Assembly (NCBI RefSeq): GCF_002355595.1
Contig: NZ_AP017422.1
Location: 5,894,823-5,958,822, forward strand
Source: Filimonas lacunae
GTDB lineage: Bacteria > Bacteroidota > Bacteroidia > Chitinophagales > Chitinophagaceae
Length of the DNA stretch: 64,000 bases
Reading direction: 5' to 3'
Shown here: positions 22,266 to 52,026 of the stretch, piece after piece
How the letters are laid out: each line of letters starts with the position of its first letter
How positions within the stretch are numbered: position 1 is the first letter of the stretch
The notes under the pieces: generated by a model
The model's input: the letters and a program-made list of their open reading frames with translations, nothing else
What the model was told of the DNA's origin: nothing
Database searches by the model: none
Translations under genes and position numbers: made by a program

Positions 22266-22307
22266 TATAAATTATGTATATAAATGAGAAAAAACGATTG
22301 AATAGCG

Positions 22308-22751: not shown

Positions 22752-22763
22752 AAATTTGAAATG

Positions 22764-22784: not shown

Positions 22785-23825
22785 TTACAACTTCACCACT
22801 ACATGTTTGATGTTCCTGCGGTTCCAGGTGTAGGTAATATGTAATAAACCATCGGGAGTTTGTATAATGGCGGGGTAGCTAAATTCGCCATCTTTCTCAT
22901 TTTCAAGCACATATACATCATTCCAGTGAATGCCGTCTGGCGATGTAGCCAAGTAAAGCCGGTTACGTCCGTTATACCAGTCCTTCCCTTTCAGTAAAGG
23001 GTTATATACCAGCGCATAACTGCCATTACAAAGCGTTACTGCATCACTCCCCGAGTTGGGATTAGGCAGTTCCGTAACAGTCAACGGCTCCCAGCTGGCG
23101 CCATTGTTCGTTGACCATGTTTGCACAATCCTGTTTTGACGGCTTCTGCAAAGCATTTGTAAGCTGTCTTTCCCATGTATCAATATACTGGGCTGAATTA
23201 CGCCAAAAGTGTCACAGTAAATAGCCACTTTCTTCCAGTGATTCCCGTTTTTATCGGTTTGTTCTACATGGATATGCCATTCCTTTTCATCCAGGCTTTC
23301 GGTGCTTGATGGATGAAGAATAGTGCCATTAGCCAGTTGCACCGGTTTATTTTTAATAGGCCCTAACATGCCGCTGGGTAACTTTTGGGCAGCAGACCAG
23401 CTTTGCCCATTATTATCCGAATAACGAACCATTCCCCACCATTCCCTGGGATTCTTGCCTATTTTATAATACAGGAAGAGTCTTCCAGTTTGGCTGCGGA
23501 ACAAAACAGGGTTCCAGCAAGGATAACGCAATGTATCATTGATAATACCATCTGCCACTTGCTTAGGGGCCTGCCATTTACCATTCTGATAAATGGCTGT
23601 CCAGACACACACTTCAGGGCTCGATTCATAAGGCCCGGCAAACCACGCCGCTATTAATCTTTTACCGGGTAATGCTTCTATAGTGGAAGCATGGCTGGCA
23701 GCATACGGTGGCTTATCCACAATCACTTCATTCACCAACGCCTGTGCAGTAGCACCGGGCACCGTCTGTGCCTGCGCCTTCCAGCACCAACCCAGGCAAA
23801 GCATTACCCATATTATCCTGTTCAT
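22785..23825 (-). CDS. BNR/Asp-box neuraminidase-like glycosidase (last gene of the N-glycan PUL)
   Basis: A 346-residue secreted protein with signal peptide ending CWKAQAQ (residue 20). Asp-box repeats of the sialidase six-bladed propeller are visible at residues 136-143 (SDNNGQSW) and 238-245 (STNNGASW), with a weaker SPDGIHW later. It belongs to the predicted-neuraminidase group (COG4692-like). The FRIP motif of classic GH33 sialidases is not seen; the equivalent region reads AAWFAGPYESSPEVCVW. True sialidase activity is therefore unproven. It starts 12 bases after the GH125 gene and closes the operon. It would act in the periplasm on a terminal sugar of the imported glycan. Confidence 0.72.
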   Translation of the reverse strand: MNRIIWVMLCLGWCWKAQAQTVPGATAQALVNEVIVDKPPYAASHASTIEALPGKRLIAAWFAGPYESSPEVCVWTAIYQNGKWQAPKQVADGIINDTLRYPCWNPVLFRSQTGRLFLYYKIGKNPREWWGMVRYSDNNGQSWSAAQKLPSGMLGPIKNKPVQLANGTILHPSSTESLDEKEWHIHVEQTDKNGNHWKKVAIYCDTFGVIQPSILIHGKDSLQMLCRSRQNRIVQTWSTNNGASWEPLTVTELPNPNSGSDAVTLCNGSYALVYNPLLKGKDWYNGRNRLYLATSPDGIHWNDVYVLENEKDGEFSYPAIIQTPDGLLHITYTWNRRNIKHVVVKL

Positions 23826-23837
23826 ATCCTTTGCGTG

Positions 23838-25256
23838 TTACGCTAACAAATGTGGCTTCTCTTTATAGGTTTTCCATAAAAACTCCCCATACAATGTATT
23901 AGCCCATGCAAACCACGAACGGGTATAATTAGAGGCATCATCTTTATGAAACGTTTCATGCATAAAACCGGTACCAGCATGTGTGGCTTTCAGGGTTACC
24001 AGGCACTCTTTTATTTCGGTGTCGCTGGTGCTGGTTAAACCACGCATAATAATACCCAATGGCCATATCATATCCGGCCCTACGTGTGGCCCGCCTATTC
24101 CTTCGCCGGCAATGCCTTTAAAGAAATAAGGGTTATTGGTAGATAACAACATTTTACGGGTATTGATATATACCGGATCGGTTACACTCACTGCCCCCAG
24201 GTAAGGCAGTGAAACCAGGCTTGGCACATTGGCATCATCCATCAGGTTAAAACTGCCAAAGCCGTTTACTTCATAAGCATATATTCTGCCGTATTGCGGA
24301 TGCTGAATAATCGCATACTTTTTTAACGCTGCTAACACTTCTTCGGCCAGCACATCTAACTGCACAGCTAACGATATATCCTTAAACAACTGGCGCATAA
24401 CAATGGCGGCCTGCTTCAGGCTTTCCACCGCAAAAAAATTGGAAGGCACCAGGAAGGAATAAATAGTGGCATCATCACTGGGGCGAAAGGCCGAACAAAT
24501 TAAACCTACAGGCTTTACGGGATAGCCATAACCACCGGGCGGCATAGTATCGGTAGCCTTTTCTGTTTTGCGTTGAAACGAATAAGAACCGGGATAAAAT
24601 TTACGTTGCTGTTCTTTAAAAGTTTCAAAGGTAGCGCGTATACTTTGCACCCAATCGGTGGTAAAAATAGAATCATCTCCTGTTTTCTTCCAGTAATGAT
24701 AAGCCAGCCGTATAGGATAACATAATGAATCTATCTCCCATTTTCTTTCATGCACTCCAGGCTGCATGTTGGTGATATCATCTTTCCACTCACTGATCTT
24801 ATTGGCATCTTTATAAAAGGCATTGGCATAAGGGTCTTTTAAAATACACTTTACCTGGCGGTGAATTACCCCTGCTATCATTTGCTGTAAAGGTTTGTCG
24901 CCTTTTACAAATTGTAAGTAAGGCCAAACCTGGGCAGTGCTGTCACGTAACCACATAGCGTCAATATCTCCTGTAATAACATAGGTATCGGGCTTGCCAT
25001 TGTGCGTTTCATGAAACACGGTCGTATCCAGGGTATTGGGAAAACAGTTTTCAAACAACCAGCCCGTTTCCCTGTCTGCCACATTCTTCCTGAACTCTTC
25101 AATTACAGCTTCAATGTTCTTGCTATGAAACTTTCTGCGGGCATAAGGCACCCGTACAGTAGGAAATGCATTGATGCCAGCCGCCAGGGATATTTTTCCC
25201 AATAGCATGCCTGCACTTAATACACCTGTTGCTTTAATAAACTCGCTTCTTTTCAT
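23838..25256 (-). CDS. GH125 exo-alpha-1,6-mannosidase
   Basis: A 472-residue protein of family GH125, metal-independent inverting exo-alpha-mannosidases that cleave alpha-1,6-linked mannose of N-glycans. Conserved blocks are YVITGDIDAMWLRDSTAQVWPY (residues 92-113, with the catalytic Asp region), ERKWEIDSLCYPIRLAY, GIAGEGIGGPHVG and the C-terminal HETFHKDDASNYTRSWFAW. The N-terminus MKRSEFIKATGVLSAGMLL looks like an export signal with a KR pair. It lies 11 bases after GH35. It complements the GH92 enzyme in removing the two mannosidic branches. Confidence 0.92.
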   Translation of the reverse strand: MKRSEFIKATGVLSAGMLLGKISLAAGINAFPTVRVPYARRKFHSKNIEAVIEEFRKNVADRETGWLFENCFPNTLDTTVFHETHNGKPDTYVITGDIDAMWLRDSTAQVWPYLQFVKGDKPLQQMIAGVIHRQVKCILKDPYANAFYKDANKISEWKDDITNMQPGVHERKWEIDSLCYPIRLAYHYWKKTGDDSIFTTDWVQSIRATFETFKEQQRKFYPGSYSFQRKTEKATDTMPPGGYGYPVKPVGLICSAFRPSDDATIYSFLVPSNFFAVESLKQAAIVMRQLFKDISLAVQLDVLAEEVLAALKKYAIIQHPQYGRIYAYEVNGFGSFNLMDDANVPSLVSLPYLGAVSVTDPVYINTRKMLLSTNNPYFFKGIAGEGIGGPHVGPDMIWPLGIIMRGLTSTSDTEIKECLVTLKATHAGTGFMHETFHKDDASNYTRSWFAWANTLYGEFLWKTYKEKPHLLA

Positions 25257-25267
25257 CTGGGCTTAAG

Positions 25268-27142
25268 TTAATTTTGTTCTGACTCTTGTAGTTGTTCCAG
25301 CACAGGTATAGCGGTACTGGTTAGCGAAGTTTGCAGGGTATCATTTAATTGCTCAAATACAGTTACCTGGTTTTTGCCCTTTTGCAACCAGCAGCCGGGC
25401 ACATATAAAGTAAGCTGGGGACCTGTTTGCCAATAACGACCCAGGTTATGGCCATTCACAAACACAATTCCCTTCCCCCATTTGCTCATATCCAAAAACG
25501 TATCCGCGGTTGAACTTAGGTCAAATTCTCCAGTATACAACACAGGGCGGCCTGCTTTATTTTTTATCGTAGCCGGCCCCGTCGTCGGCGCTTTATCAAA
25601 AGGCATTTTATACATTTCCCAGTTACCGGTGATCACAAAATCATCAATGGTAATGGGCGCTATAATCCCTTTTGTATTCTCCGTTATCTGCGCTCCGTAA
25701 TTAATCCTACCCATATTCTCTACCAATATATCCAGTGTGCTGTTAAAAGGAATATCTACCGCGCACTCATAGGTTTGCGTAATCCTGTTTAACACACCTA
25801 CTCTTTTACCATCTACATACACAGTAGCATAATCACGTAAACCGGGCACTTTCAATACTCCACGCACAGGCTGTGTAAACTTTTTACTGTACAATACATA
25901 TCCACTGCCCTGTTGCAGATTTTCAAACGATAGCACCGTATCGCTCACTACCGGTTTCAATTTGTTTTTCCAGCCTAACACATCCTGTGCAGCATGCAAA
26001 GCAATCGCAGGCAATGCTTTTACTGGAATAGCCGCCGGCACTTCCGGTACCGGGTATTGTACATATTTTTTCATCAGCTCGCGTAAAGCAGTATACTTAG
26101 CGGTTACCCAACCGGCTTCACTAATAGGAGCATCATAATCGTAGCTGGTAATATCCGGCTGAATATCATGTTCCTCATTGTAGTTAGCACCAGCCGTAAA
26201 CCCAAAATTGGTGCCGCCATGTATCATGTAAAAATTAAAGCTTACCCCATTTTTTAAATACGTTTCTGTTTGTGTAGCGATCTGGCCTGCATCTATACGG
26301 GTAAATTTTTCTCCCCAGTGGTCTAACCAACCGGGATAAAACTCCGCCACCATATAAGGGCCTTTGCCATCATGGTATTTATCTACTGCTTTTTTCAGAT
26401 TATCCACATTACCTTCTCCGTTGGCAGTGGGCAACACGCCCGGTAAGGCACCGCCATCAAACAGCCAGCTTCCATCAGAAGTAAAAAGCGGCACATTCAC
26501 TCCTGCCTGTAATAACATTTGCTTAATGGCAGCGCTATATTTTTTATGTTCCTCTACCGGAATATCTTTTCGCTGTGCTACGTAAGAACCAAACTCATTC
26601 TCAGCCTGTACCATAATAATGGGGCCACCATTGGTTACCAGCAAAGGTTTTACCTGTGCAGCCAGCTGTTGAATATATTGTTTGCAGGAGTCTAAAAAAG
26701 GCTGGTTGTTGGCGCGCACCACCAGTTGCTTATTTTGTTGCAACCACCAGGGGTAGCCACCAAACTCCCACTCTGCACAGGCATAAGGCCCGGGACGTAA
26801 AATCACCCATAAACCTTCCTGCTGTGCCAGCTTTATAAATTCAGCCATGTTCTTATTATCAGAAGTAAAATCCCACACACCAGGCGCTGTGTTATGATAA
26901 TTCCAGAATACATAGGTAGCTACTGCATTTAACCCCATTGCCTTCATCATTTGCAGGCGATGACGCCAGTATTCTTTTGGCACACGGGCATAGTGCATTT
27001 CACCGGAATGAATTTGCACCGGCTTACCGTCATATAAAAAGTTACCATCCTTAATATCAAACTGATGTTTACCCTGCGCATAAGTGATCTGTGCAGTTAT
27101 CACTAGCATCATCACTACCAGCCATTGCTTTTTCATATGCAT
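25268..27142 (-). CDS. GH35 beta-galactosidase
   Basis: A 624-residue secreted enzyme (signal MKKQWLVVMMLVITAQITYAQ; either of two nearby ATGs, 27142 or 27136, may be used). Family GH35 is shown by the IHSGEMHYARVP opening, RPGPYACAEWEFGGYP, the acid/base motif MVQAENEFGSY at about 178-187, and nucleophile Glu267 in VAEFYPGWLDHWG. C-terminal jelly-roll domains follow (WGKGIVFVNGHNLGRYW). GH35 enzymes remove terminal beta-galactose, often beta-1,3 or beta-1,4, from glycans. It lies 3 bases after the GH29-F5/8C gene, consistent with joint removal of fucose and galactose from antennae. Confidence 0.94.
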   Translation of the reverse strand: MHMKKQWLVVMMLVITAQITYAQGKHQFDIKDGNFLYDGKPVQIHSGEMHYARVPKEYWRHRLQMMKAMGLNAVATYVFWNYHNTAPGVWDFTSDNKNMAEFIKLAQQEGLWVILRPGPYACAEWEFGGYPWWLQQNKQLVVRANNQPFLDSCKQYIQQLAAQVKPLLVTNGGPIIMVQAENEFGSYVAQRKDIPVEEHKKYSAAIKQMLLQAGVNVPLFTSDGSWLFDGGALPGVLPTANGEGNVDNLKKAVDKYHDGKGPYMVAEFYPGWLDHWGEKFTRIDAGQIATQTETYLKNGVSFNFYMIHGGTNFGFTAGANYNEEHDIQPDITSYDYDAPISEAGWVTAKYTALRELMKKYVQYPVPEVPAAIPVKALPAIALHAAQDVLGWKNKLKPVVSDTVLSFENLQQGSGYVLYSKKFTQPVRGVLKVPGLRDYATVYVDGKRVGVLNRITQTYECAVDIPFNSTLDILVENMGRINYGAQITENTKGIIAPITIDDFVITGNWEMYKMPFDKAPTTGPATIKNKAGRPVLYTGEFDLSSTADTFLDMSKWGKGIVFVNGHNLGRYWQTGPQLTLYVPGCWLQKGKNQVTVFEQLNDTLQTSLTSTAIPVLEQLQESEQN

Positions 27143-27145
27143 ACT

Positions 27146-28624
27146 TTAATAAACCGCTACATTAGAAATAACGGGGCAAGCTTTTGCCGCCGTAATGCGT
27201 ACTCTTATTTTGCCAGTGCTAACAGGCGCTATTTTGCAAATGCGTTTATACCCTATGGTAGTGCCTTCTGCCACCTGCTGCCATTGACCATTGGCCCATA
27301 CGTCTACAGCAAACGATTTCACACGCTGCCCCAGCTGAATGTATTCCTGTACAAGAATGTATGCTACGGTTTTAACTGCGGGTAAGTTAATAGCTACATC
27401 TGCTGTAGTTACGCTATCGTCGGCCGCCCAATAGGTATTTTCTTTACCGTCTGTAACATTTGCAGCTGCGTAAGCCGCCGCATTCCCGCGTACATTGGAA
27501 GCTGTGGCCTTTGCATGCAATGCCAGGTTGTTTCCAAATGCTTTGTTCAGCAAACGCCGAAAGCCTTGCAACGCCTTCACATCATTCTCATGAAACAACC
27601 CTCTTTTATCCGGGGGGATATTCAATAATAAAGTACTGCCACGCCCTACTGTAGTAAGATATAACTCAAATAAGCGTTCCGGGTTTTTCACCAGCGAATC
27701 TTCGGTTGCATGATAAAACCATCCGTTACGGATAGATACGTCTACTTCCGAAGGCACCCATTGTTTGCCATCGGCCGATCCTGTATTCAGCAAATGCTCT
27801 ACACCTGCTTTACCAGCATATAAAGTATCTGTACTAATGGTATTCCAGTTAGTAAGCCCTGCGGTGCCATTTTCGTTACCGCACCAACGCAAATCGGGGC
27901 CGGCATCGCTAAAAAACAACACATTGGGTTGCATTCCTCTTACCAGTTTCAAAGTGCCTGGCCAATCGTAATAAGTAGAACGATCAATCTTCCGTACTTC
28001 ATTGGCACCACCATAATACCCTTTACCGCCATTCGCACCATCAAACCACATTTCAAACAAAGGCCCGTATTGCGTAAACAGTTCCTGTAATTGATTACGG
28101 TAATATTGTACATAAGAAGGCTGTCCGTAATCTGCCCGGTTTCTATCCCAGGGAGAGAGGTACACCCCAAATTGAATCCCGGCTTTCTTACAGGCATCTG
28201 CTGCTTCCCGCACCACATCGCCTTTGCCATTTTTCCAGGGGCTTTGTTTTACAGAATGCTCGGTATACTTACTGGGCCATAAGCAAAAACCATCATGATG
28301 TTTGCAGGTAAGTATCATGCCTTTAAAACCCGCTTTTTTCAATGTAGTAGCCCACTGCAGGGCATTCAACGCAGTGGGGTTAAATATAGCAGCGCTTTCA
28401 TCGCCATTTCCCCATTCCAACCCCGTATAGGTGTTGGTGGTAAAATGCACAAAGGCATTCATTTCCATTTTATGCCAGGCCAGCTGTTTGGCCGAGGGCA
28501 CCGGCAATAATGGGGCAGGTGCCGGCACACTTTTAGCATGGCCGGCTTGCTGCGCATCAACATACAAAGCAACCTGAATAAACAGTATAAAGGCAGGGGC
28601 CACCTTTTGCAACAACTTTCTCAT
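27146..28624 (-). CDS. GH29 alpha-L-fucosidase with C-terminal F5/8C (CBM32-like) domain
   Basis: A 492-residue secreted enzyme with signal peptide near residues 1-25. Catalytic domain: LTCKHHDGFCLWPS (about 105-118) and nucleophile Asp195 in EMWFDGANGG; SLVKNPERLFELYLTTVGRGSTLLLN is typical of GH29. The C-terminal region (about 366-492; NVTDGKENTYWAADD) is a discoidin/CBM32-like domain. This two-domain form, with the HFTTNTYTGLEWG opening, resembles subfamily B, which is specific for alpha-1,3/1,4-fucose in Lewis-type branched structures. The acid/base residue was not assigned. It is embedded in the operon between cutC and GH35. Confidence 0.9.
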   Translation of the reverse strand: MRKLLQKVAPAFILFIQVALYVDAQQAGHAKSVPAPAPLLPVPSAKQLAWHKMEMNAFVHFTTNTYTGLEWGNGDESAAIFNPTALNALQWATTLKKAGFKGMILTCKHHDGFCLWPSKYTEHSVKQSPWKNGKGDVVREAADACKKAGIQFGVYLSPWDRNRADYGQPSYVQYYRNQLQELFTQYGPLFEMWFDGANGGKGYYGGANEVRKIDRSTYYDWPGTLKLVRGMQPNVLFFSDAGPDLRWCGNENGTAGLTNWNTISTDTLYAGKAGVEHLLNTGSADGKQWVPSEVDVSIRNGWFYHATEDSLVKNPERLFELYLTTVGRGSTLLLNIPPDKRGLFHENDVKALQGFRRLLNKAFGNNLALHAKATASNVRGNAAAYAAANVTDGKENTYWAADDSVTTADVAINLPAVKTVAYILVQEYIQLGQRVKSFAVDVWANGQWQQVAEGTTIGYKRICKIAPVSTGKIRVRITAAKACPVISNVAVY

Positions 28625-28634
28625 GTATATCTTA

Positions 28635-29384
28635 TTATCCCAATGCCATTCGTAAGCTTCTTACTGCTTCTTCATGAACAGCCGGATTTACAAAATCGTT
28701 CTCTTTTATAAACGCCGGGTTTACATACTGCATTTCGCTTTTAGCGGTAGTACGTAAAGAAGCATGAAACTCCCTTGCCCCCGTTTTGTTTTTGATGTCC
28801 TCTATATTGAAAGCAGATACACCACTACCCGGCATAATGCTAATGCGATTACCAGCAGCTGCTACCAGTTGTTGAATCACGTCCAGCGCTTCCACCGCTT
28901 TTACCTGCTGGCCCGAAGTAAGTATTCGTGCGCAGCCGGTTTGAACAATCACATCCAATGCCTCAAAAGGATCGCGGCAGCGGTCAAAAGCACGATGAAA
29001 AGTTACCTGCATGGGGTATGCTTCCTGTACTGCCCTGGCGGTTCTTGCTGCATCTATCTGGCCGTCTCTGGTTAAAAATCCAATTACCACACCATCACAC
29101 TGTAGTTGCTTACAAATGCGGATATCCTGTAGCATTAATTCATACTCATCCTCAGTATACAGGAAATCACCGCTACGTGAACGTATAATGGGAAACAAGG
29201 TAGTGTGCAGTTTTTCCCGGCACTGTTGTATCAGCCCAAAGGAGGGAGTAAGCCCACCTTCTGATAAACCAGTACATAACTCTATTCTGTCGGCACCACC
29301 TTTTACTGCGCTTTGTGCAGTGATAAAATCAGTAACGGCTATTTCAATTGTATATTTCACCCGTTCAACACTGGCACTACTCAT
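28635..29384 (-). CDS. cutC: CutC-family TIM-barrel protein
   Basis: A 249-residue cytosolic protein of the CutC family. Landmarks are VKGGADRIELCTGLSEGGLTPSFG (early), RSRSGDFLYTEDE, HRAFDRCRDPFEAL and RILTSGQ. There is no signal peptide. The name comes from a copper phenotype in E. coli that was later attributed to a small RNA overlapping that gene, so the biochemical function is open. Here it overlaps GH20 by 8 bases and lies 10 bases before a fucosidase, deep inside a glycan operon, which argues for a role in sugar metabolism. No copper genes are nearby. Confidence 0.9.
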   Translation of the reverse strand: MSSASVERVKYTIEIAVTDFITAQSAVKGGADRIELCTGLSEGGLTPSFGLIQQCREKLHTTLFPIIRSRSGDFLYTEDEYELMLQDIRICKQLQCDGVVIGFLTRDGQIDAARTARAVQEAYPMQVTFHRAFDRCRDPFEALDVIVQTGCARILTSGQQVKAVEALDVIQQLVAAAGNRISIMPGSGVSAFNIEDIKNKTGAREFHASLRTTAKSEMQYVNPAFIKENDFVNPAVHEEAVRSLRMALG

Positions 29385-31014
29385 ATCCTTTATTATAATT
29401 TACTTTCCACAGATCATATCGTTTAAACTGATCACGTAAACGGGAAGAAAAATCTGCCCAGTTACGGTCTGACTTCTGGCTCCATAACACTTCACTCAAG
29501 GCGCTCATACGTGGAAACACCTGGTATTCTATCGTGCTGGGATAGTGAATGTATTCCGACCATACGTTTGCCTGCGCTCCTAACACATATTTTTCCTGAT
29601 CGGTGTTTTGCAACTGCAAAGGCACCGGTTCATAACCATATACTTTTTCTACTGTTAAACAGCAGGAAAAAGTAACGGAATCTTCTTTCTCTTTCGATAA
29701 TGCCTGAGAATAGTTGAAATAAGTATGACTTTCTGGACTCATAATAACTGCATGTTTTTCTTTCGCCGCATCAACACCACCTTTCTCCCCTCTCCAGCTC
29801 ATTACTACTGCATTAGGTGCTAAGCCCCCTTCCAGTATTTCGTCCCATCCAATAATCTGACGGCCTTTGCCGTTAATATACTTCTCTATACGCTGTATAA
29901 AATAGCTCTGTAACTCATGCTCTGTTTTTAATCCTAACTTCTTCATCAGATCCTGACAAAAAGCCGATTTCTTCCAGGCATCTTTCGGACACTCATCTCC
30001 ACCAATATGTATGTACTTGGAAGGAAATAAGGCTATCACCTCATCCAGTACATCCTGTAAAAAGTTAAACGTGTATTCACTTGGGCAAAACACATCTTCA
30101 AATACCCCCCAGGTTTCCTGTACTTTTTTCAAAGGTAACGCCTGGTTTAAAGAAGAGGCAGGAGGTAACATTTTAGTAGCAGAATCCGGAAAACAACTTA
30201 ACTGTGGGTAAGCCGCAATTGCCGCAGAAGAATGGCCTGGTAATTCTATTTCTGGTACAACAGTAATGTATCTTTTAGCAGCATAGGCCACTACTTCCTT
30301 AATTTCTTCCTGGGTATAAAAACCACCATAGCGGGTGTTGGTGTTGCCTGTACCAGGATAATGGTCTATAATGGTGCCATTTCTAAATCCACCCACCTGC
30401 GTCAGTTTCGGATACTTTTTAATCTCTATTCTCCATCCCTGGTCTTCTGTTAAATGCCAGTGGAAATAGTTCATTTTATGACGGGCCAGGTAATCAATAT
30501 ACTTCTTTACAAAAGAAGCGGGAAAGAAATGACGGCCTGCATCCAGGTGCATGCCACGGTAGGCAAAACGGGGATAGTCTGTAATATCCGTAAAGGCTAC
30601 CGTTAAAGCATTTCCTTTCTGTAAGGGCAATAACTGAATTAAAGATTGTACGCCATAAAACACACCTTCTGCATCCACTCCCTTTATCACAATACCTTTT
30701 TTATCAGCATGCAGGGTATAAGTACCCGGCACGGCATTTTTCTTAGGCTCTACGCTCAGCGTAATAGCACCTGCTTTGCTGGCAGAAGATTGTAGCCCTA
30801 CCTGGTACACTTCTTTCACATAATCAGTGAAGTAAGTGGCACTGGATTGTAACGATTTGTTTGCCACCGCTACTACCGACGCTGCTTTAATAGTATAAGT
30901 TCCTCCAATAGCAGGCATTTTTATGTCTACCGGCTTAGGTATAATATTCACCTGTGCCACCGAGGTGCAGGCAATCAACACAGCCGCCATCCCTATTGTA
31001 ATACGTTTGTTCAT
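29377..31014 (-). CDS. GH20 beta-N-acetylhexosaminidase
   Basis: A 545-residue enzyme. The signal MNKRITIGMAAVLIACTSVAQ could be lipobox-processed at Cys16 (VLIAC) or cut after VAQ. A GH20b-type N-terminal domain (about 22-140) precedes the barrel, which opens FAYRGMHLDAGRHFF. The Asp340-Glu341 pair in IHIGGDECPKDAW is the catalytic pair that uses the substrate acetamido group. It removes terminal beta-GlcNAc or GalNAc, here probably the antennary GlcNAc of N-glycans. It follows GH92 by 23 bases and overlaps cutC by 8. Confidence 0.95.
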   Translation of the reverse strand: MNKRITIGMAAVLIACTSVAQVNIIPKPVDIKMPAIGGTYTIKAASVVAVANKSLQSSATYFTDYVKEVYQVGLQSSASKAGAITLSVEPKKNAVPGTYTLHADKKGIVIKGVDAEGVFYGVQSLIQLLPLQKGNALTVAFTDITDYPRFAYRGMHLDAGRHFFPASFVKKYIDYLARHKMNYFHWHLTEDQGWRIEIKKYPKLTQVGGFRNGTIIDHYPGTGNTNTRYGGFYTQEEIKEVVAYAAKRYITVVPEIELPGHSSAAIAAYPQLSCFPDSATKMLPPASSLNQALPLKKVQETWGVFEDVFCPSEYTFNFLQDVLDEVIALFPSKYIHIGGDECPKDAWKKSAFCQDLMKKLGLKTEHELQSYFIQRIEKYINGKGRQIIGWDEILEGGLAPNAVVMSWRGEKGGVDAAKEKHAVIMSPESHTYFNYSQALSKEKEDSVTFSCCLTVEKVYGYEPVPLQLQNTDQEKYVLGAQANVWSEYIHYPSTIEYQVFPRMSALSEVLWSQKSDRNWADFSSRLRDQFKRYDLWKVNYNKGYE

Positions 31015-31037
31015 ATGTTTTATTCTACAGTTGATTA

Positions 31038-37846: not shown

Positions 37847-37874
37847 ATGTTATATCAGGTAAGTGCAAAATGAA

Positions 37875-39317: not shown

Positions 39318-39324
39318 CGCTTTG

Positions 39325-41997: not shown

Positions 41998-41999
41998 TG

Positions 42000-44513: not shown

Positions 44514-44542
44514 AAAATATTGGTATCAGTATTTCAATTTAG

Positions 44543-44589
44543 GAAAAAAAATATAGAAAAGACTGTGCTGTTTTCAGTCACAGCCTTTT
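44543..44589 (-). terminator. Imperfect terminator/attenuator between susD and the enzyme genes
   Basis: On the minus strand a hairpin (44557-44589; about 13 pairs with one mismatch and one bulge around a 4-base loop) is followed by a U-rich run (44544-44552). It begins 16 bases after the susD stop. Being imperfect, it would probably terminate only part of transcription. Confidence 0.6.
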
Positions 44590-44605
44590 CTTATATGCCT
44601 TGCTG

Positions 44606-46195
44606 TTAATTTACATCCCAGAAAACCTTATTGGTTCTCAGATCTTTTGGCTGTACAACCTCATAGTTCTCAGCATTGTAAGCCTTTTCTGTTGAAGTAT
44701 ATACCAATCGGGTAGGTGGTGTAGTATAGCCCGCCAGGGTGGCTGTAGGGAAAGTAAGCTGCGGATATCCCGTTCTTCTATACTCTGCCCATGCCTGGAT
44801 AGACTGCAGGAAGCCAAAATGCAACCACTTCTGCGTCCATATTTCCGAGAGTTTGTTGGCGCTGCTACCTGTATAAGCCACTCCATTGTCTACAAAATCG
44901 GCAATAACAGCGTCCGAAGGTTTTGTTACCGCGGCAATACTGGTATTGGTGGCATTCAGATAATAATAGAAAGATACTGATTGCTTCACCGCTAAATCGT
45001 AAGCCGCTTTTGCGCTGGCGGTGCTACCCCAGCGTTCATAAGCTTCTGCCTTTATAAAGTTTACTTCCGGAGCAGTAATAACAATACCCGGCAAATAAGC
45101 ATTCACTAAAAAAGTAGCAGAATCCCATATGGCATATTTGCCATAGTTGGCTTCCTGCTGGGAAGAGTTAAACGAAATGGGCATTGCCTGATAAGTGGCG
45201 TTAGGATAAAAAGTATCCTTAATAGTAACACCATACTTATCAAACATAGCAGGAATACGTGGATCATTGGCTGGCAGCATCACTGTATTCAACATATAAT
45301 CCGGCGCATAATGGCTTGGCAGTTCCGTTAAGCCATCTTTTAAACTATTTATGTTATTGGTTAAAGGCTTCAGCAATATATCGGAAGTTCCCGGTGAATA
45401 ATTGGCCACATTATTGCCATCCACCAGTGGATACGCTGCACTATTGTTCAGCATTTCCATAATAGCCGTCTGTGCTGTAGTTTCATCATAGTTAGACATG
45501 CGCATTAACAATCGCAATCTGATAGAGTTTGCGTAACGTTGCCATTTGTCAATACTACCACTGGACAATATATCTGCCCTGGTAAAAGCAGATAAAGAAG
45601 CAGCTGTTTTAAAATAACTGGCCGCTACTGCCAAGCTATCCAGGAAAGTCTTATACAAATCTACCTGGCTATCAAACTTCGCATTTACAATAGTACTGCT
45701 TGTTTCCAGGCTGCCTGCTTCTGTAAAAGGCATATCACCCCACATATCCACCACCTGCGAAGCCTGATCGTATAAAACAACCCGGGCCGCTTCCATATAA
45801 ATGCGGTTGGTTACTTTAGTGGCAGAGTCCATAGAATTATACAACACCTGCATAGCCCTGTACATTGACAAAGGACCGCTGCCATTGGAATTGGCGTAAT
45901 AAAAGTTATTCCAGTACTGATCTGAATAACTATCATTTTGCTGATACATGGTACTGCTAAACGGGTAATAAGCCGTTTGACTATATACAGCAGGTTGCAT
46001 TAATAAGAAGGTACGCACATTCCAGTAGCTGGGACGTACACGATCATTATTTAAAATAGCCGTTAAAAAACCAGACAAGCTGCCATCAAAGGCTTTTTCC
46101 GGATTCTCATATTTATCATCCAAAGACTTTTTGCACCCACTCACTACCAAAAGAAGGAGTACGCAAAAGCTTGTAATTATGGTAAACTTTTTCAT
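44606..46195 (-). CDS. susD: SusD/RagB-like outer-membrane glycan-binding lipoprotein
   Basis: A 529-residue lipoprotein with signal MKKFTIITSFCVLLLLVVSGC (Cys21), followed by KKSLDDKYENPEKAF, whose acidic residues fit a Bacteroidota surface-export signal. The early region LSGFLTAILNND and the block ARVVLYDQASQVVDMWGDMPFTEAG are typical of the SusD-like group with TPR-type helices. It would form the lid over the SusC barrel and bind the glycan at the surface. It starts 25 bases after susC. No further surface-binding lipoprotein follows, so this may be the only surface glycan-binding protein of the locus. Confidence 0.9.
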   Translation of the reverse strand: MKKFTIITSFCVLLLLVVSGCKKSLDDKYENPEKAFDGSLSGFLTAILNNDRVRPSYWNVRTFLLMQPAVYSQTAYYPFSSTMYQQNDSYSDQYWNNFYYANSNGSGPLSMYRAMQVLYNSMDSATKVTNRIYMEAARVVLYDQASQVVDMWGDMPFTEAGSLETSSTIVNAKFDSQVDLYKTFLDSLAVAASYFKTAASLSAFTRADILSSGSIDKWQRYANSIRLRLLMRMSNYDETTAQTAIMEMLNNSAAYPLVDGNNVANYSPGTSDILLKPLTNNINSLKDGLTELPSHYAPDYMLNTVMLPANDPRIPAMFDKYGVTIKDTFYPNATYQAMPISFNSSQQEANYGKYAIWDSATFLVNAYLPGIVITAPEVNFIKAEAYERWGSTASAKAAYDLAVKQSVSFYYYLNATNTSIAAVTKPSDAVIADFVDNGVAYTGSSANKLSEIWTQKWLHFGFLQSIQAWAEYRRTGYPQLTFPTATLAGYTTPPTRLVYTSTEKAYNAENYEVVQPKDLRTNKVFWDVN

Positions 46196-46220
46196 CTTTT
46201 AAAATTGACAGGTGCTTTAA

Positions 46221-49200
46221 TTAAAAACTGGCATTTAAAGAGATACCTATGCTACGTGTAGGAGCTGAGGAACCTAAGTTAACACCTTGTGAGTACCACT
46301 TATTACCTGTTACAGACTCCGGATCTATATTATCCATCGTTTTCCAGATGTAGAAGAGGTTACGTGCAATGAAAGACACTTTTAAACCGTTCAAATGCAT
46401 CTTATTGGAAATAGCAGATGGCAATCTGTATCCAAACACCACTTCACGCATTTTAATATAGCTATTATCATACACGGCGCCTTTTTCGTTCCAGGCGTCT
46501 GCACCCCAGTTAAACGTATTCAGGTAATAATCTGCTGCACTGATCACTTTGGTATTGGTAGCGCCAGTAGTTTGGTTTACACCTTTCAGCAACACACCAT
46601 CGTTGTAAATAGTACCGTTATCTGTGTACGTTAAACCACCATGCGCAGCGTCTCTATACTCCAGCGTGCTTTTGTACATACCTGCACCCAGTGCATATTT
46701 GGTAGGAGGAGAAAGCAGTTGACCGCCAATGCGATAATCCGCTGTAAAATCTAAAGAGAAAGATTTATAGGTAAAAGTGTTAGAGATACCACCAATTGCT
46801 TTAGGCATAATGTTGCCAGCCTTTACATAACGACTCTTGTCTATTACGTATAAACCATCATCATTAATCAGTAACTCGCCTTTCTCATTGGTAGCCCTTG
46901 GCATTACATAAATATTACCCAATGTTTCGCCTACGCCTGCCACAATTCTAAAGGCGCTTTGTTCACCATCATAAAACACTATCTGGTTCAGGCCGGATGT
47001 AAGTGACTTCACTTTCGATTTAGAGAAAGAATAGTTCACCCGCATATCCCATTTAAAAGCTTTGGTTACTATAGGAGTAAAATTCAAGCCTACTTCCAAC
47101 CCTTTGTTGTCTATTTCCCCTACATTGATAATCTGACTACCTGCACCTACAGATCCTGCGGTAGACAAGTTGATGATCTGGTTTTTAATCTGGTTGGTGT
47201 AATAGTTTACATCCATTCCTATACGATTGTTCAGGAAACGTGCTTCTATGCCAAACTCAGCTTCATACTTCTTTTCAGGAACCAGGTTGCTATTACCATA
47301 GGTACCCGTTAAAGAAAGCGAAGGAACCGATCCGTTCACAGACTGTAATGAAGTTTGCGTGTAGGCAATATTAGATTCGTAAGGTAACGGACCATTAGCC
47401 ACAATAGCATAAGAAGAACGCACCTTGGTGTAGCTGATAAAGGCAGGCAAATGAAATGCCTCAGACACTACAAAGCTTCCATTTACAGATGGATAAAAAT
47501 ATTTGTTATTAACTGGCGGCAATGGAGAAGCATATTCTTCTCTTGCAGTAGCTTCCAGGTACAGGAAGTTTTTGTAACCCAGGTTCACCGTTCCCAGGTA
47601 AGCATATTTCAGTAATTCTCTCCTGGTAGAAGTGGTGGTAGCCTGCGCAAAAGAGTTGGAAATAGCAAACCAATCACGCGAAACCAGGCCACTGGCTGTG
47701 CTTGAATTCTGATCCAGGTATTTTTCTGATCTGCCCTGGAAACCACCGGTTACCGTCAGGTCAAAATCCTTACCCAGTTTGTTATTGTAAGTCAGCAAGG
47801 CGTCTCCATAAAATAAAGAGTATTGTCCTTTCTGTATAGCATATGCACCAGTGCTGGTAGTACCGTTATAAATTTCAGCCTGCTCGGTATGGCGCTTGTC
47901 TTCTGAACCATAACCGGTATAATCGCTACCTAAACGTGTTCTAAACTTAACATGTTTTGCTACATCCCAGTTTAAAGTACCGCTGGCAATGATCCTGTTT
48001 TCCGTTTCGTCGTAGCTGTTTTTCAGTTGGTTCCAGAAAAAGTCCAGCAAGTTGGTAGCCCGCATAGGATACACAAAATCTTCCGGACGCCCGGTACCAT
48101 TGGTGCTATACTTATAACCATCGGAAGTTTGATATCTCTGTTTCATCACAGACATATCTTCTGCACGGCTAAAGAAACCACCAAAAGAGCTTAATACGTT
48201 ATAAATTAAATAAGCCCTGTTATGTGTATAAGTGTTCACATAATTCACTACGAAATCAGCAGTAACCTTGTCGCTTAACTTAATAGAGCTATTCAGGTTA
48301 AAGTTGTTACGCGATTGCTTGCTACCCGGGTTGGTACCTTTATAATCTAAACGGTTCACCGAAAAGCGGAAGCTTCCCTTATCTGTATAATTAGATACCG
48401 CCATGTTCACACTGGAACTATAGCCTTTGTCAAAAATATCTTTATAGTTATTCTCCTGGGCTACAAACGGACGGATAGAACCATCCCACCATCTTACCTG
48501 CTGGCCTTCCATTTTAGGACCAAACTGGGCATAAGCACGGAAATAAGGATGGTACCCGGTAGGGCTTTGCGCATCAGCCATCCAGCCATCAGCCGTATAG
48601 CCATTAGCCACGTTAGTAGCTCTGTCATAACCAGGGCCATATGTGTTTTGAAACTCTGGCAGGAAAGCTGCTCTTTCCATAGTGGCATTATAGTTTAAGT
48701 CAACACCTAAACCTCTGCCCTTGGTTCCTTTTTTGGTAGTAATTACAATTACACCGTTGGCCGCATCAGAACCATATACCGCAGCAGCACTGGATCCTTT
48801 TAAGATGGTCATGCTTTCAATGTCTGCCGGGTTAATATCTAATATACCATTACCCCGAATACGCTGATCATCATCGAAATTACTGTTATTGGCACCTTTA
48901 GAACCATATTGACCATCGTTTCTGATCACTACCCCATCCACCACATACAATGGCTGCTGGTTGTAGCTGATAGAGTTGATGCCACGTATTTGAATATTCA
49001 CTGCACTGGATGCTCCACCGGGGGCAGTAGTAATTTTTACACCAGCGGCTTTACCATATAAAGCAGAACCCAGGTTGGTATTACCCGCCTCAGTAAGTTG
49101 CTTGGATGAAATAGTATTTACGCCATAACCTAACGATCTGGCTTCTCTTTTAATACCTAAAGAAGTTACTACCAGACTGGACAATTCGTTCGACTCTACA

Positions 49201-49796
49201 TCCAACACCACTTCAATAGTGGCATCACTGCCCACTACAATTGTTTTTTGCTGAAAACCCACCAGGTTTATCAACAGCGAATCGCCTTCAGCAGCATTAA
49301 TGTGAAACTTACCTTCCGCGTCGGTTACCACTCCCCCTTTTCTGCCTTTCACCTGTACGCTTACCGCAGAAAGGGGTGCGCCCTTTGCGTCTTTCACCAC
49401 GCCTTTTACTTCGGCTTTATTCTCATATCCCGATTCAGGAGTAATTACTATCAAATTATTCTCCAGCACAGAATACGTGTATCCCGTACTGTTTAATAAA
49501 CGGCTTAACACCGTAAGCACATCTTCATCCCGGGCAATAACATCTACCTTTTTATTCGACTCCAGTTTTCTGTCGCTGAATAAAAAATGATAGCTGCTTT
49601 GTTTTTCTATAATAAGGAGAGCTTGTTTTAATTCGATAGACTTTAAACTTAACGTAATCTTTGTTTGTCCAAATCCCCTGGCAAAGCTTTGAAAGTTAAG
49701 GAAAAGTACTAAGGCAATAATGAGCTTCATAATTACCAATTTCTTTATTAGCCAATATCTGGCCTGTACCCCCGCCGGGGGGCAAAAATTTTTCAT
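46221..49796 (-). CDS. susC: SusC/RagA-family TonB-dependent transporter with STN signalling domain
   Basis: A 1191-residue outer-membrane transporter. The long N-terminus before MKLIIALVLFLNF is common in this group, so the first ATG is kept; 49730 is an alternative. An STN domain (about 47-100; ITLSLKSIELKQALLIIEKQ) for talking to an anti-sigma factor is followed by a carboxypeptidase-regulatory-like domain (about 128-205; VKGVVKDAKGAPLSAVSV), the plug (ALYGKAAGVKI, QIRGINSISYNQQPLYVVDGVV) and a 22-strand barrel ending in Phe. It imports the oligosaccharide with SusD. The STN domain and the neighbouring fecR and sigma genes make a complete surface-signalling chain. Confidence 0.95.
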   Translation of the reverse strand: MKNFCPPAGVQARYWLIKKLVIMKLIIALVLFLNFQSFARGFGQTKITLSLKSIELKQALLIIEKQSSYHFLFSDRKLESNKKVDVIARDEDVLTVLSRLLNSTGYTYSVLENNLIVITPESGYENKAEVKGVVKDAKGAPLSAVSVQVKGRKGGVVTDAEGKFHINAAEGDSLLINLVGFQQKTIVVGSDATIEVVLDVESNELSSLVVTSLGIKREARSLGYGVNTISSKQLTEAGNTNLGSALYGKAAGVKITTAPGGASSAVNIQIRGINSISYNQQPLYVVDGVVIRNDGQYGSKGANNSNFDDDQRIRGNGILDINPADIESMTILKGSSAAAVYGSDAANGVIVITTKKGTKGRGLGVDLNYNATMERAAFLPEFQNTYGPGYDRATNVANGYTADGWMADAQSPTGYHPYFRAYAQFGPKMEGQQVRWWDGSIRPFVAQENNYKDIFDKGYSSSVNMAVSNYTDKGSFRFSVNRLDYKGTNPGSKQSRNNFNLNSSIKLSDKVTADFVVNYVNTYTHNRAYLIYNVLSSFGGFFSRAEDMSVMKQRYQTSDGYKYSTNGTGRPEDFVYPMRATNLLDFFWNQLKNSYDETENRIIASGTLNWDVAKHVKFRTRLGSDYTGYGSEDKRHTEQAEIYNGTTSTGAYAIQKGQYSLFYGDALLTYNNKLGKDFDLTVTGGFQGRSEKYLDQNSSTASGLVSRDWFAISNSFAQATTTSTRRELLKYAYLGTVNLGYKNFLYLEATAREEYASPLPPVNNKYFYPSVNGSFVVSEAFHLPAFISYTKVRSSYAIVANGPLPYESNIAYTQTSLQSVNGSVPSLSLTGTYGNSNLVPEKKYEAEFGIEARFLNNRIGMDVNYYTNQIKNQIINLSTAGSVGAGSQIINVGEIDNKGLEVGLNFTPIVTKAFKWDMRVNYSFSKSKVKSLTSGLNQIVFYDGEQSAFRIVAGVGETLGNIYVMPRATNEKGELLINDDGLYVIDKSRYVKAGNIMPKAIGGISNTFTYKSFSLDFTADYRIGGQLLSPPTKYALGAGMYKSTLEYRDAAHGGLTYTDNGTIYNDGVLLKGVNQTTGATNTKVISAADYYLNTFNWGADAWNEKGAVYDNSYIKMREVVFGYRLPSAISNKMHLNGLKVSFIARNLFYIWKTMDNIDPESVTGNKWYSQGVNLGSSAPTRSIGISLNASF

Positions 49797-49873
49797 ACAT
49801 TTACTATTGTAAGATGATAAAAGGCAGTCCCCGCCGTCAAACGTGGCTGCATGGTAAATTCCAGTCGTCTGTC

Positions 49874-49902
49874 AGAGGGAGTTGCTGCAAACAATTCCCT
49901 CT
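49874..49902. other. Stem-loop between fecR and susC
   Basis: An 11-bp inverted repeat with one mismatch (49874-49884 with 49892-49902) and a 7-base loop sits in the 161-base gap between fecR and susC. On the minus strand no U-tract follows, so it is not a standard terminator. It may stabilise the susC mRNA or mark a processing site. Confidence 0.4.
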
Positions 49903-49957
49903 TTTCATTGGTATTATGTTCTCTTTTTTTGTAGTGGCATGTGCATTTAAGTTTTGG

Positions 49958-51046
49958 TTAAAGAATGCAGAGGGTTTCCCCTTTTATTCTGAACTGAAAT
50001 TTCTCCGTTAGTTGTAGTGCTGATAGCGCCTGCTCCAGCGATTCTTTTTCAAAAACACCTGTAAAACGCAAACTTTCCTGCTGTTCATTCTGGAAATACA
50101 CATTCACGCCGTACCATCTTTCCAGTTTCTTAGCCAAACTGCCAAAGTCCTCATTTCTAAACACCAGTTTGTTATTAATCCATGAGGTTTCTACTATATC
50201 GCTGCTATCGTTAGTGCTGTAATGTGTTAATGTAGCCAAAGAGTAAGAAGAAGGAGCAGCAGCCTGCTTTACAGTAGCTGCCACTTCCTTTCCTGTTTCA
50301 TGTGCATTATTCGTAAGTACAAACTTATCATTAGGCTTCAGGTAAATTTTATCTGAAGGCCTGTCGGCCACGTTAATTTCAATGGCGCCTTGTATTAAAG
50401 TAGTTTCGCTGGTTGCTTCATTTGCATAAGTGCGAACATTAAATGCAGTGCCTAATACCCGTATATCCATTTTAGGTGTATGGATAATAAAAGGATGGTT
50501 TGCATTTTTAGCCACATCGAAGTAAGCTTCACCGGTAAGAAACACTTCTCTTTTGCTTCCTGTAAAGCTTTCCGGAAACTTCAACTTACTGTCAGAGTTT
50601 AATATCACACGGGTGCCGTCAGTTAATACTATGGTAGACTTCACTTTTTTAGGCGTGTATTTCTCCTGCCAGTTACCCGAAGCCAGTATATCTTCTCCCC
50701 CTTTCCGGTTGGCCAGAAAAAGTATAGCACCCGCTATTAATAATATAGCTGCCGCAGCTGCTCCTTTCCAATACCATCGCTTTCCTTGCATAGAAATAAC
50801 AGGAGCAGGTTCCTCTTCCTGCTCCTGTTCCAGAACAGCTATTCTCTGGGTCACCTTTTTAAAGGCAGCATCTATACCTTGGTAAGAAAGAGAAGCCTCT
50901 TCCTCCCAAAAAGCTCTTAAATCGGCATATTGGGTACGTAAAACGGGCTGTGATTGCAAGAGTTGCTGTAGCTGCTCTCGCTCTTCAGCAGAAATTTCAC
51001 CACTTAACTCTTTGGTTATAAGCAATATAAAGTTTTGATTATCCAT
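49958..51046 (-). CDS. FecR-family anti-sigma factor
   Basis: A 362-residue inner-membrane protein from the ATG at 51046 (MDNQNFILLITKELSGEIS); the in-frame GTG five codons upstream is unlikely. The cytoplasmic N-terminal domain (to about residue 85) would hold the sigma factor. One membrane helix is GAAAAAILLIAGAILFLA. The periplasmic FecR domain contains TIVLTDGTRVILNSDSKLKFP, EVFLTGEAYFDVAKNANHPFIIHT and IRVLGTAFNVRTY, followed by a DUF4974-like C-terminal domain (NEDFGSLAKKLERWYGVNV) that contacts the STN domain of SusC. It relays glycan uptake to the sigma factor 59 bases upstream. Confidence 0.95.
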   Translation of the reverse strand: MDNQNFILLITKELSGEISAEEREQLQQLLQSQPVLRTQYADLRAFWEEEASLSYQGIDAAFKKVTQRIAVLEQEQEEEPAPVISMQGKRWYWKGAAAAAILLIAGAILFLANRKGGEDILASGNWQEKYTPKKVKSTIVLTDGTRVILNSDSKLKFPESFTGSKREVFLTGEAYFDVAKNANHPFIIHTPKMDIRVLGTAFNVRTYANEATSETTLIQGAIEINVADRPSDKIYLKPNDKFVLTNNAHETGKEVAATVKQAAAPSSYSLATLTHYSTNDSSDIVETSWINNKLVFRNEDFGSLAKKLERWYGVNVYFQNEQQESLRFTGVFEKESLEQALSALQLTEKFQFRIKGETLCIL

Positions 51047-51105
51047 ATTCAAGTCTCGCACTTAACATAAGGACAACAATTGCTTAACAAATTGCCTACA
51101 AGATT

Positions 51106-51738
51106 CTAAAAAAAATTTACGAGGAGGAAAATCACGATTCCGGCAATCGCATCGTCCCGGAAAATACTGTGTGGATAATCAGCATATCCCTGTAATACCA
51201 GGTTTAGCTTTTTCATGGCACGGAACAATTGGGTTTGCACTGTACGGGGGGAAATAGATAAAATTTCAGCCGCTTCTTTATAGCTCATGCCATCTTCCCT
51301 AACAAGCCGGAATATAACCTGGCATTGTTGGGGCAGCTCCGCAATAGCTTTGTTCATTTTTACAAACAGCTCTTTCTTTTCCAGTTCCTTTTCCGGAAAG
51401 CTGGCACTGTTTATCAGCTGCGTTTCGTCATCTATAGAAGTAACACGATAATTAGAGAAAGATTTGAGATAATTCAGTGAGCCGTTTTTTACTGCTACAA
51501 ACAGATATACCTCCGGATTATTTACATGTTGCAGTTGCTCCCGGGTCATCCAGCATTTTACAAAAACATCCGAAACAATTTCTTCAGACACTTCCCGCTG
51601 ACGCACATATAAATTACAAAAATTAATTAAGCGAGAGTACAACATATGAAAGAGCTTCTCAAAAGCCACAGCATCTCCACCCATAGTTATGGCACTCCAT
51701 ATGGCGGATACACTATCTGTACTCTCTCTTCCTTTCAT
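51106..51738 (-). CDS. ECF RNA polymerase sigma factor
   Basis: About 210 residues from the ATG at 51738 (MKGRESTDSVSAIW). Region 2 is FEKLFHMLYSRLINFCNLY and VSEEIVSDVFVKCW; region 4 is ELPQQCQVIFRLVREDGMSYKEAAEILSISPRTVQTQLFRAMKKL. This is the Bacteroidota ECF type paired with FecR and STN-SusC. The C-terminus carries an unusual hydrophobic tail (AIAGIVIFLLVNFF) of about 14 residues, which might touch the membrane. It should direct RNA polymerase to susC and perhaps to its own promoter when the glycan is present. Confidence 0.95.
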   Translation of the reverse strand: MKGRESTDSVSAIWSAITMGGDAVAFEKLFHMLYSRLINFCNLYVRQREVSEEIVSDVFVKCWMTREQLQHVNNPEVYLFVAVKNGSLNYLKSFSNYRVTSIDDETQLINSASFPEKELEKKELFVKMNKAIAELPQQCQVIFRLVREDGMSYKEAAEILSISPRTVQTQLFRAMKKLNLVLQGYADYPHSIFRDDAIAGIVIFLLVNFF

Positions 51739-52026
51739 GTGCAGTTTTTGTTTACAAAGGGTAATTTGTAAGTACAAGTTAGAGAAAAATCAATCAACAG
51801 CCTATTTCTAAACTTTTTAATGCACTCAGCAGCAATGCATTAAAATAATTCCCATATTGTTTAGTTTCATTGGCAGCACCCCATTTTTATTTCGCAGAGG
51901 TCTTTCCTATTTTGGCCGCGTTTCTTCTTTTCCCTAAAAAATGTAAAAAATCCTGAAACAAAAAAAGGCTGCGCCTGGAAAAGCGCCGCCTTGCTATCAA
52001 CACAAACAAAGAATGAGACTCTTTAA
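51739..52026. other. Intergenic region between the PUL regulator and the TonB receptor gene
   Basis: This 288-base stretch has no gene that I can support. It must hold the promoter of the sigma gene and the terminator of the TonB receptor gene. A TACCCTTTG sequence on the minus strand just upstream of the sigma gene is one base longer than the -7 consensus and is only a weak candidate. The rest is AT-rich without repeats. Confidence 0.5.
51960..51992 (-). terminator. Terminator of the TonB receptor gene
   Basis: On the minus strand a 10-bp GC-rich stem with one mismatch (51983-51992 with 51965-51974, 8-base loop) runs into a U-tract (51960-51966), 34 bases after the receptor stop codon. Confidence 0.8.

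Follow-up and report, generated by a model that had tools for sequence, protein, structure and literature searches.

A probable operon for the use of plant-type complex N-glycans in Filimonas lacunae

The single-contig genome of Filimonas lacunae (7,814,405 bases) contains a long run of co-directional genes that encode glycan-degrading enzymes, and this run, which is probably a polysaccharide-utilisation-type operon for plant-type complex N-glycans, is the subject here. It lies in a stretch of 64,000 nucleotides at positions 5,894,823–5,958,822, termed the window, and coordinates given without a contig or locus prefix refer to it. UvrA is 79–81% identical to that of Pinibacter, Flavihumibacter and Ferruginibacter, 77% to that of Arachidicoccus, 74–75% to that of Chitinophaga and 60–63% to those of Sphingobacterium, Mucilaginibacter and Chryseobacterium, in line with a position near Chitinophagaceae. 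The open reading frame (ORF) list of the window gives 16 minus-strand ORFs that span 51777 to 22785. A preliminary description of this DNA had reported 16 same-strand genes with overlaps and with gaps of about 160 bases at most, and the ORF list bears this out: the widest internal gap, between FecR and SusC, is 161 bases, and four neighbouring pairs overlap. The overlap of GH3 (GH, glycoside hydrolase family) vanishes if its start is the internal Met at 41997. The end point first proposed, 51738, corresponds to the first internal ATG of the sigma factor ORF, which itself reaches 51777. All 14 genes named at that time are confirmed by Pfam, and by NCBIfam for NagB-LmbE; two genes had been left unnamed, those of the alpha/beta-hydrolase (42000–44513) and of CutC (28635–29384). 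In order of transcription, with two flanking genes last, the features are as follows.

51106..51777, minus strand: ECF-type (extracytoplasmic function) sigma factor (Pfam Sigma70_r4_2, 3e-17; likely ATG start at 51738)
49958..51061, minus strand: FecR anti-sigma factor/sensor (Pfam FecR, FecR_C)
46221..49796, minus strand: STN-type SusC TonB-dependent transporter (Pfam STN, Plug, CarbopepD_reg_2)
44606..46195, minus strand: SusD-like outer-membrane lipoprotein (Pfam SusD-like_2)
42000..44513, minus strand: exported alpha/beta-hydrolase of 837 amino acids, esterase or S9-peptidase like (weak Pfam Esterase, Peptidase_S9)
39325..42045, minus strand: GH3 with PA14, likely beta-xylosidase (Pfam; probable start at 41997)
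37875..39317, minus strand: GH29-A-like fucosidase, likely core alpha-1,3-fucosidase (Pfam; neighbours of relatives)
35918..37846, minus strand: NagB-LmbE, glucosamine-6-phosphate deaminase-like (NCBIfam NF002557, 1045 bits)
33283..35928, minus strand: GH2 with Ig_GlcNase domain, likely beta-mannosidase or endo-beta-mannosidase-like (Pfam)
31038..33299, minus strand: GH92 alpha-mannosidase, apparently alpha-1,3 type (Pfam; closest solved relatives)
29377..31014, minus strand: GH20 beta-N-acetylhexosaminidase (Pfam 5e-117)
28635..29384, minus strand: CutC-family protein (Pfam 5e-68)
27146..28624, minus strand: GH29-B-like alpha-1,3/4-fucosidase with F5/8 domain, putatively antennary (Pfam; solved relatives)
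25268..27142, minus strand: GH35 beta-galactosidase, putatively for antennary galactose (Pfam 8e-107)
23838..25256, minus strand: GH125, predicted alpha-1,6-mannosidase (Pfam 2e-168)
22785..23825, minus strand: BNR_2 sialidase-fold protein, probably not a sialidase (Pfam; AlphaFold; Foldseek)
21096..22766, minus strand: OsmC and a Cys/Met pyridoxal phosphate (PLP) enzyme, flanking sulfur genes, possibly co-transcribed (gaps of 18 and 42 bases)

The SusC and SusD genes are adjacent, with a gap of 25 bases, and form the pair by which a polysaccharide utilisation locus is recognized. A sensor/regulator is linked to them, i.e. the ECF sigma factor and FecR genes and the STN domain on SusC. As judged by eye and not with a predictor, ten hydrolases have export signals (that of GH3 only from the second Met, that of GH125 the least clear), SusD has a lipoprotein signal, and no signal peptide is visible in NagB-LmbE or CutC. 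On the 3′ side, OsmC begins 18 bases after BNR and the Cys/Met PLP enzyme follows 42 bases further. A hairpin search found no clear terminator between BNR and OsmC, and the first strong hairpin, with a 15-pair stem, is at 21023–21056, downstream of the Cys/Met enzyme; the transcription unit may therefore comprise 18 genes.

The locus is better read as directed at plant-type N-glycans, with core alpha-1,3-fucose, beta-1,2-xylose and Lewis-a antennae, than at the animal type. The best solved relatives of GH3 are the beta-xylosidases 7zb3 (519 bits) and 8c7f (515 bits), the next scoring 426, and with a plant-type target GH3 gains a function. GH92 is closest to BT3130 (6f8z, 634 bits), then to 7zgm (581 bits) and 6f91 (570), and one of its two alpha-1,3-mannosidase relatives, 7zgm, is specific for plant N-glycans. 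A GH92 that appears by sequence to be of the alpha-1,3 type thus occurs together with a GH125, as in the nix cluster of Xanthomonas. A solved-structure search places GH29-B near 8ayr, 5k9h and the 3ues/3mo4 ‘Alpha-1,3/4-fucosidase’ entries. GH29-B enzymes are described as favouring Lewis epitopes (PMC11189522), and this preference fits the Lewis-a antennae of plants.

From the gene set we infer the following route, including its substrate specificities, order of action, induction and localisation. The ECF sigma factor, FecR and STN-type SusC would sense the glycan and switch the operon on, and SusC/SusD would take up N-glycans or glycopeptides, to be trimmed in the periplasm by the ten exported hydrolases. 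Antennae would be removed first, GH29-B cutting alpha-1,4-fucose, GH35 then beta-1,3-galactose and GH20 then N-acetylglucosamine (GlcNAc). At the core, GH92 would next cut alpha-1,3-mannose, GH3 beta-1,2-xylose and GH29-A the core alpha-1,3-fucose; GH125 would cut alpha-1,6-mannose, GH2 beta-mannose and GH20 chitobiose last. NagB-LmbE and CutC would process GlcNAc-derived products in the cytosol. Genes outside the locus would provide the enzymes for release from protein, namely a PNGase bearing a tail for the type IX secretion system (T9SS) and a glycosylasparaginase.

The preliminary description had proposed a complex N-glycan locus of generic or animal kind. Exo-degradation of a complex N-glycan by one piece of DNA stands; the plant-type target is preferred because GH3 had been left unexplained, there is no canonical sialidase, and GH29-A relatives pair with GH3 or with a type II PNGase. 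Were the target an animal-type or generic fucosylated glycan, BNR would be a sialidase and the GH29 enzymes would cut alpha-1,6-core and Lewis-x fucose. GH35, GH20, GH92, GH125, GH2 and GH29-B would serve animal glycans too, and a sialidase fold, together with a fusion to GH29-B in genome G190, would suit sialyl-Lewis antennae. The AlphaFold model of BNR (19 sequences, pLDDT 89.9) does have the six-bladed sialidase fold, and its ten best Foldseek matches are 5hx0, an uncharacterised protein, and sialidases (TM 0.69–0.77, 11–18% identity). Residues were assigned by eye from an alignment and from sialidase motifs. By this mapping, in 19 of 19 aligned homologues the first sialidase arginine is replaced by an invariant His-Ala (H45-A46), and the position of the catalytic glutamate is Val, Ile or Ala; Tyr317, R227, R287 and several acids are invariant. 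The arginine triad and Tyr/Glu pair of GH33 are thus incomplete, and with the first Arg and the catalytic Glu missing BNR is judged unlikely to be a sialidase; it probably serves as another kind of hydrolase or as a module for binding. The fusion in G190 joins BNR_2 to a GH29-B fucosidase (806 amino acids, L032:9518-11938), so it is likely that BNR acts on or binds the fucosylated antenna. The missing residues throughout the BNR family, a GH3 that has no role on animal glycans and a type II PNGase in the neighbourhood of the G190 relative of GH29-A make an animal-type target quite unlikely.

BNR was also considered as a marker of N-glycan loci and was rejected, as only three (L032, L054, L056) of 29 other BNR places have other locus genes at 45% identity or more. 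A second BNR in the F. lacunae genome (44% identical; C1:1402703-1403644, L057) forms part of a 1282-codon open frame; no other locus genes were found within the surrounding 19.9 kb.

Relatives of GH29-A (E ≤ 1e-60) are present in 44 of 296 Bacteroidota genomes. Two sets of their neighbourhoods were compared, the best 80 loci among the matches listed for named organisms, and 26 loci, mostly best-scoring, each taken from a different one of the 44 genomes. A partner was any of eleven tested genes within 10 kb at ≥45% identity and ≥60% coverage, some loci being cut by contig ends. At least one partner was found in 34/80 and 16/26 loci, and two or more in 12/80 and 5/26, respectively, while 16 unrelated window genes used as a control gave 5 of 1280 and 0 of 416 gene-by-locus matches. 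GH3 is the commonest partner in the larger set (15/80), although 11 of these pairings are in Chryseobacterium and hence are not independent; in the smaller set GH92 leads (5/26), followed by GH3 (4/26). A glycosylasparaginase is near the GH29-A relative in 7/80 and 3/26 loci. In G190 a co-directional run consists of GH30, GH125 (56%), GH29-A (66%), glycosylasparaginase, GH36N-like, GDSL, GH18 and PNGase genes. The PNGase is of type II and carries a PNGase_F-II_N domain, and the best matches of the asparaginase are entries named glycosylasparaginase.

Among other neighbourhoods (L181, L186, L211), SusC/SusD genes 53–56% identical adjoin GH29-A in Sphingobacterium faecium and S. paludis, with BNR at 53%; the SusC copies beside GH29-A in these two species are 54–56% identical. 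GH3 and BNR come after GH29-A in S. alimentarium.

The site of the locus is found in three states within one genus. Gene content, sequence relationship, synteny and presence or absence at the site are observed directly in two congeners, G296 and G297, with 39.8 kb searched around the site in each. In G296 the site is empty: UvrA, the Cys/Met enzyme and OsmC are followed by the TonB receptor and sulfur-assimilation genes, and these flanks are contiguous except for a 3.6-kb gap with other ORFs. None of the 16 genes is in the 39.8 kb, the one match being between SusC and the TonB receptor (27%), and a search of the whole G296 genome found no GH125, no GH2 of the locus kind and no CutC. OsmC and the Cys/Met enzyme are thus present without the locus. 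G297 has at the same site and in the same order GH3 (73%), GH29-A (75%), GH2 (73%), GH92 (81%), GH20 (69%), CutC (76%) and GH125 (82%), and this seven-gene core begins 118 bases after the TonB receptor. The sigma factor, FecR, the SusC/SusD pair, the alpha/beta-hydrolase, NagB, GH29-B, GH35 and BNR are absent from the 39.8 kb at the G297 site, to which the search for them was confined. The seven genes would fit the needs of a xylosylated, fucosylated trimannosyl core, and the genes missing include the antenna enzymes. The three genomes are compatible with either gain, in the long form, or loss, in the short form. It should be pointed out that the clustering goes beyond chance, since seven of the 16 genes recur in a congener with their order and site unchanged, and genome searches found the sole GH125 and the sole CutC of F. 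lacunae in this locus.

The preliminary description had called the locus near-complete. This holds for the exo-acting enzymes; it does not hold for the release step, as Pfam finds no PNGase, GH18, GH85 or glycosylasparaginase among the 16 genes. A single PF09113 match was found in the genome, namely a PNGase-family protein that bears a Por_Secre_tail (T9SS) and is encoded about 0.5 Mb from the locus, at about 5.38 Mb of the chromosome (L061:9038-11269). It is divergent, with 58 bits to PNGase F, and is outside any glycan locus. Judged by eye, the WD and CxE motifs seem to be retained and the Glu118 region lost. The protein may supply an extracellular release step, and T9SS tails have been reported for PNGaseL and PNGaseDo. 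Of 120 loci, a query with this protein picked out L217 alone, and some PNGase neighbours may therefore have escaped notice. Three genes of the Asparaginase_2 family are also present, and one of these, about 0.86 Mb from the locus, resembles the glycosylasparaginase of G190 (64%). GH18 matches occur at three places, two of these above the cut-off.

Several observations weigh against a plant-type N-glycan locus. The lack of a release enzyme in the locus is one, and the low share of GH29-A loci with any partner another. The preliminary description had assigned GH2 to beta-mannose; among solved structures the CsxA-type exo-beta-glucosaminidase (217 bits) comes ahead of the beta-mannosidases (151 bits). 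Both catalytic glutamate regions, read by eye from the alignment as WCGGNE and FNSEVG, seem to be present. Relatives of GH2 at 56–67% identity in five genomes of the same family (G303, G304, G302, G309, G312) are mostly apart from locus genes, and only G309 has GH3 (59%), GH29-B (52%) and GH35 (42%) near GH2. GH29-A is only moderately like solved fucosidases (best 6gn6, 189 bits). In addition, plants share the combination of core alpha-1,3-fucose and xylose with some invertebrates and algae. This brings up insect-type glycoproteins as a target. GH29-A relatives, judging from record titles, are spread across many Bacteroidota and a few metagenome-assembled genomes of Ignavibacteria, KSB1 and Aminicenantes, and the type II PNGase of Bacteroides massiliensis is reported to act on insect glycans as well (PMC9522356). 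A GH3 beta-1,2-xylosidase and a Lewis-a-type antenna set would, however, point to plants, and some GH29-A carriers have plant-associated names (phyllosphaerae, Leaf180, rhizosphaerae), although these are names alone. An insect-type target is therefore considered rather unlikely. A different glycan altogether, e.g. fungal mannan, arabinogalactan or xyloglucan, would mean that N-glycan-like families are used otherwise; GH92 and GH125 serve fungal alpha-mannan too, and GH3, GH29 and GH35 serve xyloglucan. GH20, GH2 and NagB have no clear place in such a pathway, and this, with the glycosylasparaginase genes near GH29-A relatives and the PNGase and GH18 of G190, makes it very improbable.

CutC is an unexpected member of a glycan operon. 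Its family membership is clear (Pfam 5e-68; solved relatives 3iwp and 1twd). Across the three congeners CutC occurs only with the operon, the G297 copy being in the same slot, and of 25 genomes tested the locus-free G296 is the one without it. CutC neighbourhoods reaching about 4 kb to either side were compared at 40 of 95 listed places, mostly top-scoring and not random (L250-L289). A glycosylasparaginase is near CutC in 22 of these 40 Bacteroidota neighbourhoods, in seven family codes, and in 17 it shares the strand of CutC and lies upstream, at most 211 bases away in terms of aligned sequence. The control with 16 unrelated window genes gave 3 of 640 gene-by-locus matches. In 24 further neighbourhoods, G297 included, with 1.5 kb on each side (L290-L313), a glycosylasparaginase was found in 11. 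CutC is present in 37/44 genomes with GH29-A vs 55/252 others; within the same class as F. lacunae the figures are 27/27 vs 35/46, and in other classes 10/17 vs 20/206, as judged by Fisher tests that are uncorrected for kinship. Within the same family, a different N-glycan-like locus, L315 (G033:C1:138000-157900), has SusC, PNGase-family, glycosylasparaginase, CutC, GH92, GH29-type and GH29-B genes.

The chances seem about even that CutC in Bacteroidota works in the cytosol as one step in the breakdown of N-glycoproteins, on a small product that comes from glycosylasparaginase or from N-glycan trimming, and that the seven-gene operon is a minimal plant-core module, which transporter and antenna genes extend. 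The substrate could be, for example, 1-amino-GlcNAc or another GlcNAc derivative. Against such a role are the CutC neighbourhoods with no glycosylasparaginase at these distances (18/40 and 13/24), and the finding that Escherichia coli, a control genome, has CutC as well as an Asparaginase_2 match. CutC is also rarely near GH29-A (1/80 and 0/26 loci at ≥45% identity), so that its link is to glycosylasparaginase and not to GH29-A. The copper sensitivity of an E. coli cutC mutant has been attributed wholly to the small RNA MicL (PMC6538781). The STITCH network predicted for VirK of Xanthomonas includes CutC, nixI and asparaginase (PMC5700972). A literature search found nothing that joins CutC with glycosylasparaginase or aspartylglucosaminidase, and the titles listed for CutC with polysaccharide utilisation locus terms gave nothing evident on N-glycans.

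In the alpha/beta-hydrolase, GHSMGG, D478 and H510 are invariant in 8/8 aligned sequences, and the gene follows GH29-A orthologues in Larkinella and Parapedobacter. The model (8 sequences, pLDDT 72) resembles in part esterases, in part S9 peptidases and in part GH2 enzymes, with a query TM of 0.17–0.24 and a target TM of up to 0.63 (LC-Est1 esterase domain); the predicted structure is at most esterase-like. An exported alpha/beta-hydrolase of about 840 amino acids, in which Ser, Asp and His are conserved, is beside GH29-A relatives or CutC in several distant genomes (L149, L164, L204, L318).

The surroundings of the locus are those of sulfur assimilation. At 52027–63921 are CysN, SAT, CysK, a methylase, a flavodoxin reductase, sulfite reductase, TauE and a TonB receptor, and OsmC and the Cys/Met enzyme at 21096–22766 on the opposite flank complete this neighbourhood. 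In the window there are no Rfam matches at gathering thresholds and no tRNA, and promoter-like sites are not clearly enriched over shuffles (32 vs 41.6; 48 vs 42.8, s.d. 6.4). A composition scan gave no clear GC break at the locus.

The preliminary description regarded contiguity of these activities as unusual, and as often lacking in gut Bacteroides. Scattered functions are indeed reported for B. massiliensis, whose plant N-glycan enzymes are in several loci (PMC9522356), but ‘unusual’ has to be softened: nix of Xanthomonas campestris pv. campestris, as presented in PMC5700972, has a TonB-dependent receptor plus nixD-L in one cluster and joins glycosidases for plant N-glycans to a receptor, as the Filimonas locus probably does. 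It also has fucosidase and beta-galactosidase genes, as here, and neuraminidase-like and asparaginase genes nearby (PMC5700972). The nix host is gammaproteobacterial, unlike Filimonas, and the likeness is one of description. The nix cluster is not known to have SusD or sigma/FecR. Its enzymes are said, from the work of Dupoiron in 2015, to act in the order GH92, then GH3, then GH125.

The B. massiliensis pathway (PNGase, GH92, GH3, GH29, GH2) shares the proposed chemistry, with GH92, GH3 and GH29 in common, and its solved GH92, 7zgm, is close to that of Filimonas. Its genes are distributed over several loci and its galactosidase is a GH2 rather than a GH35, and according to its authors no enzyme was known for alpha-1,6-mannose (PMC9522356). 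Filimonas, in contrast, has GH125 and GH2 in the same operon and PNGase outside it. The PNGaseRz operon of Runella zeae resembles that of G190 in make-up, where GH29-A and GH125 relatives occur; the Filimonas locus differs from it in having SusC/D, sigma/FecR, GH92, GH20, GH35 and GH29-B and in lacking a release enzyme. The complex N-glycan loci of Bacteroides thetaiotaomicron also have GH20, GH2 and GH29 enzymes (PMC10154615), but are described as multiple co-regulated loci for mammalian glycans with release by GH18, which is not in the Filimonas locus. Thus, degradation of plant N-glycans by a single cluster is already known in Xanthomonas, and a scattered pathway in Bacteroides. What is new is the presence of SusC/D linked to sigma/FecR, GH35, GH125, GH2 and CutC in one run. 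The literature searched, PMC12381499 included and CAZy and PULDB records being outside the search, yielded no description of a locus like this in Bacteroidota from soil or of Chitinophagaceae type.

One operon with candidate enzymes for every exo step represents a toolbox and a testable nutrient route for Bacteroidota, and the candidates include the alpha-1,6-mannose and beta-mannose steps, which in the B. massiliensis study fell to other loci or to unknown enzymes. The three states of the site, i.e. empty, core only, and core with antenna, transporter and regulator genes, show how a locus of this kind can be built up or reduced. If the proposed role of CutC is true, a family that is widely conserved from bacteria to humans, and is annotated as a copper protein with a disputed role, would become directly testable.

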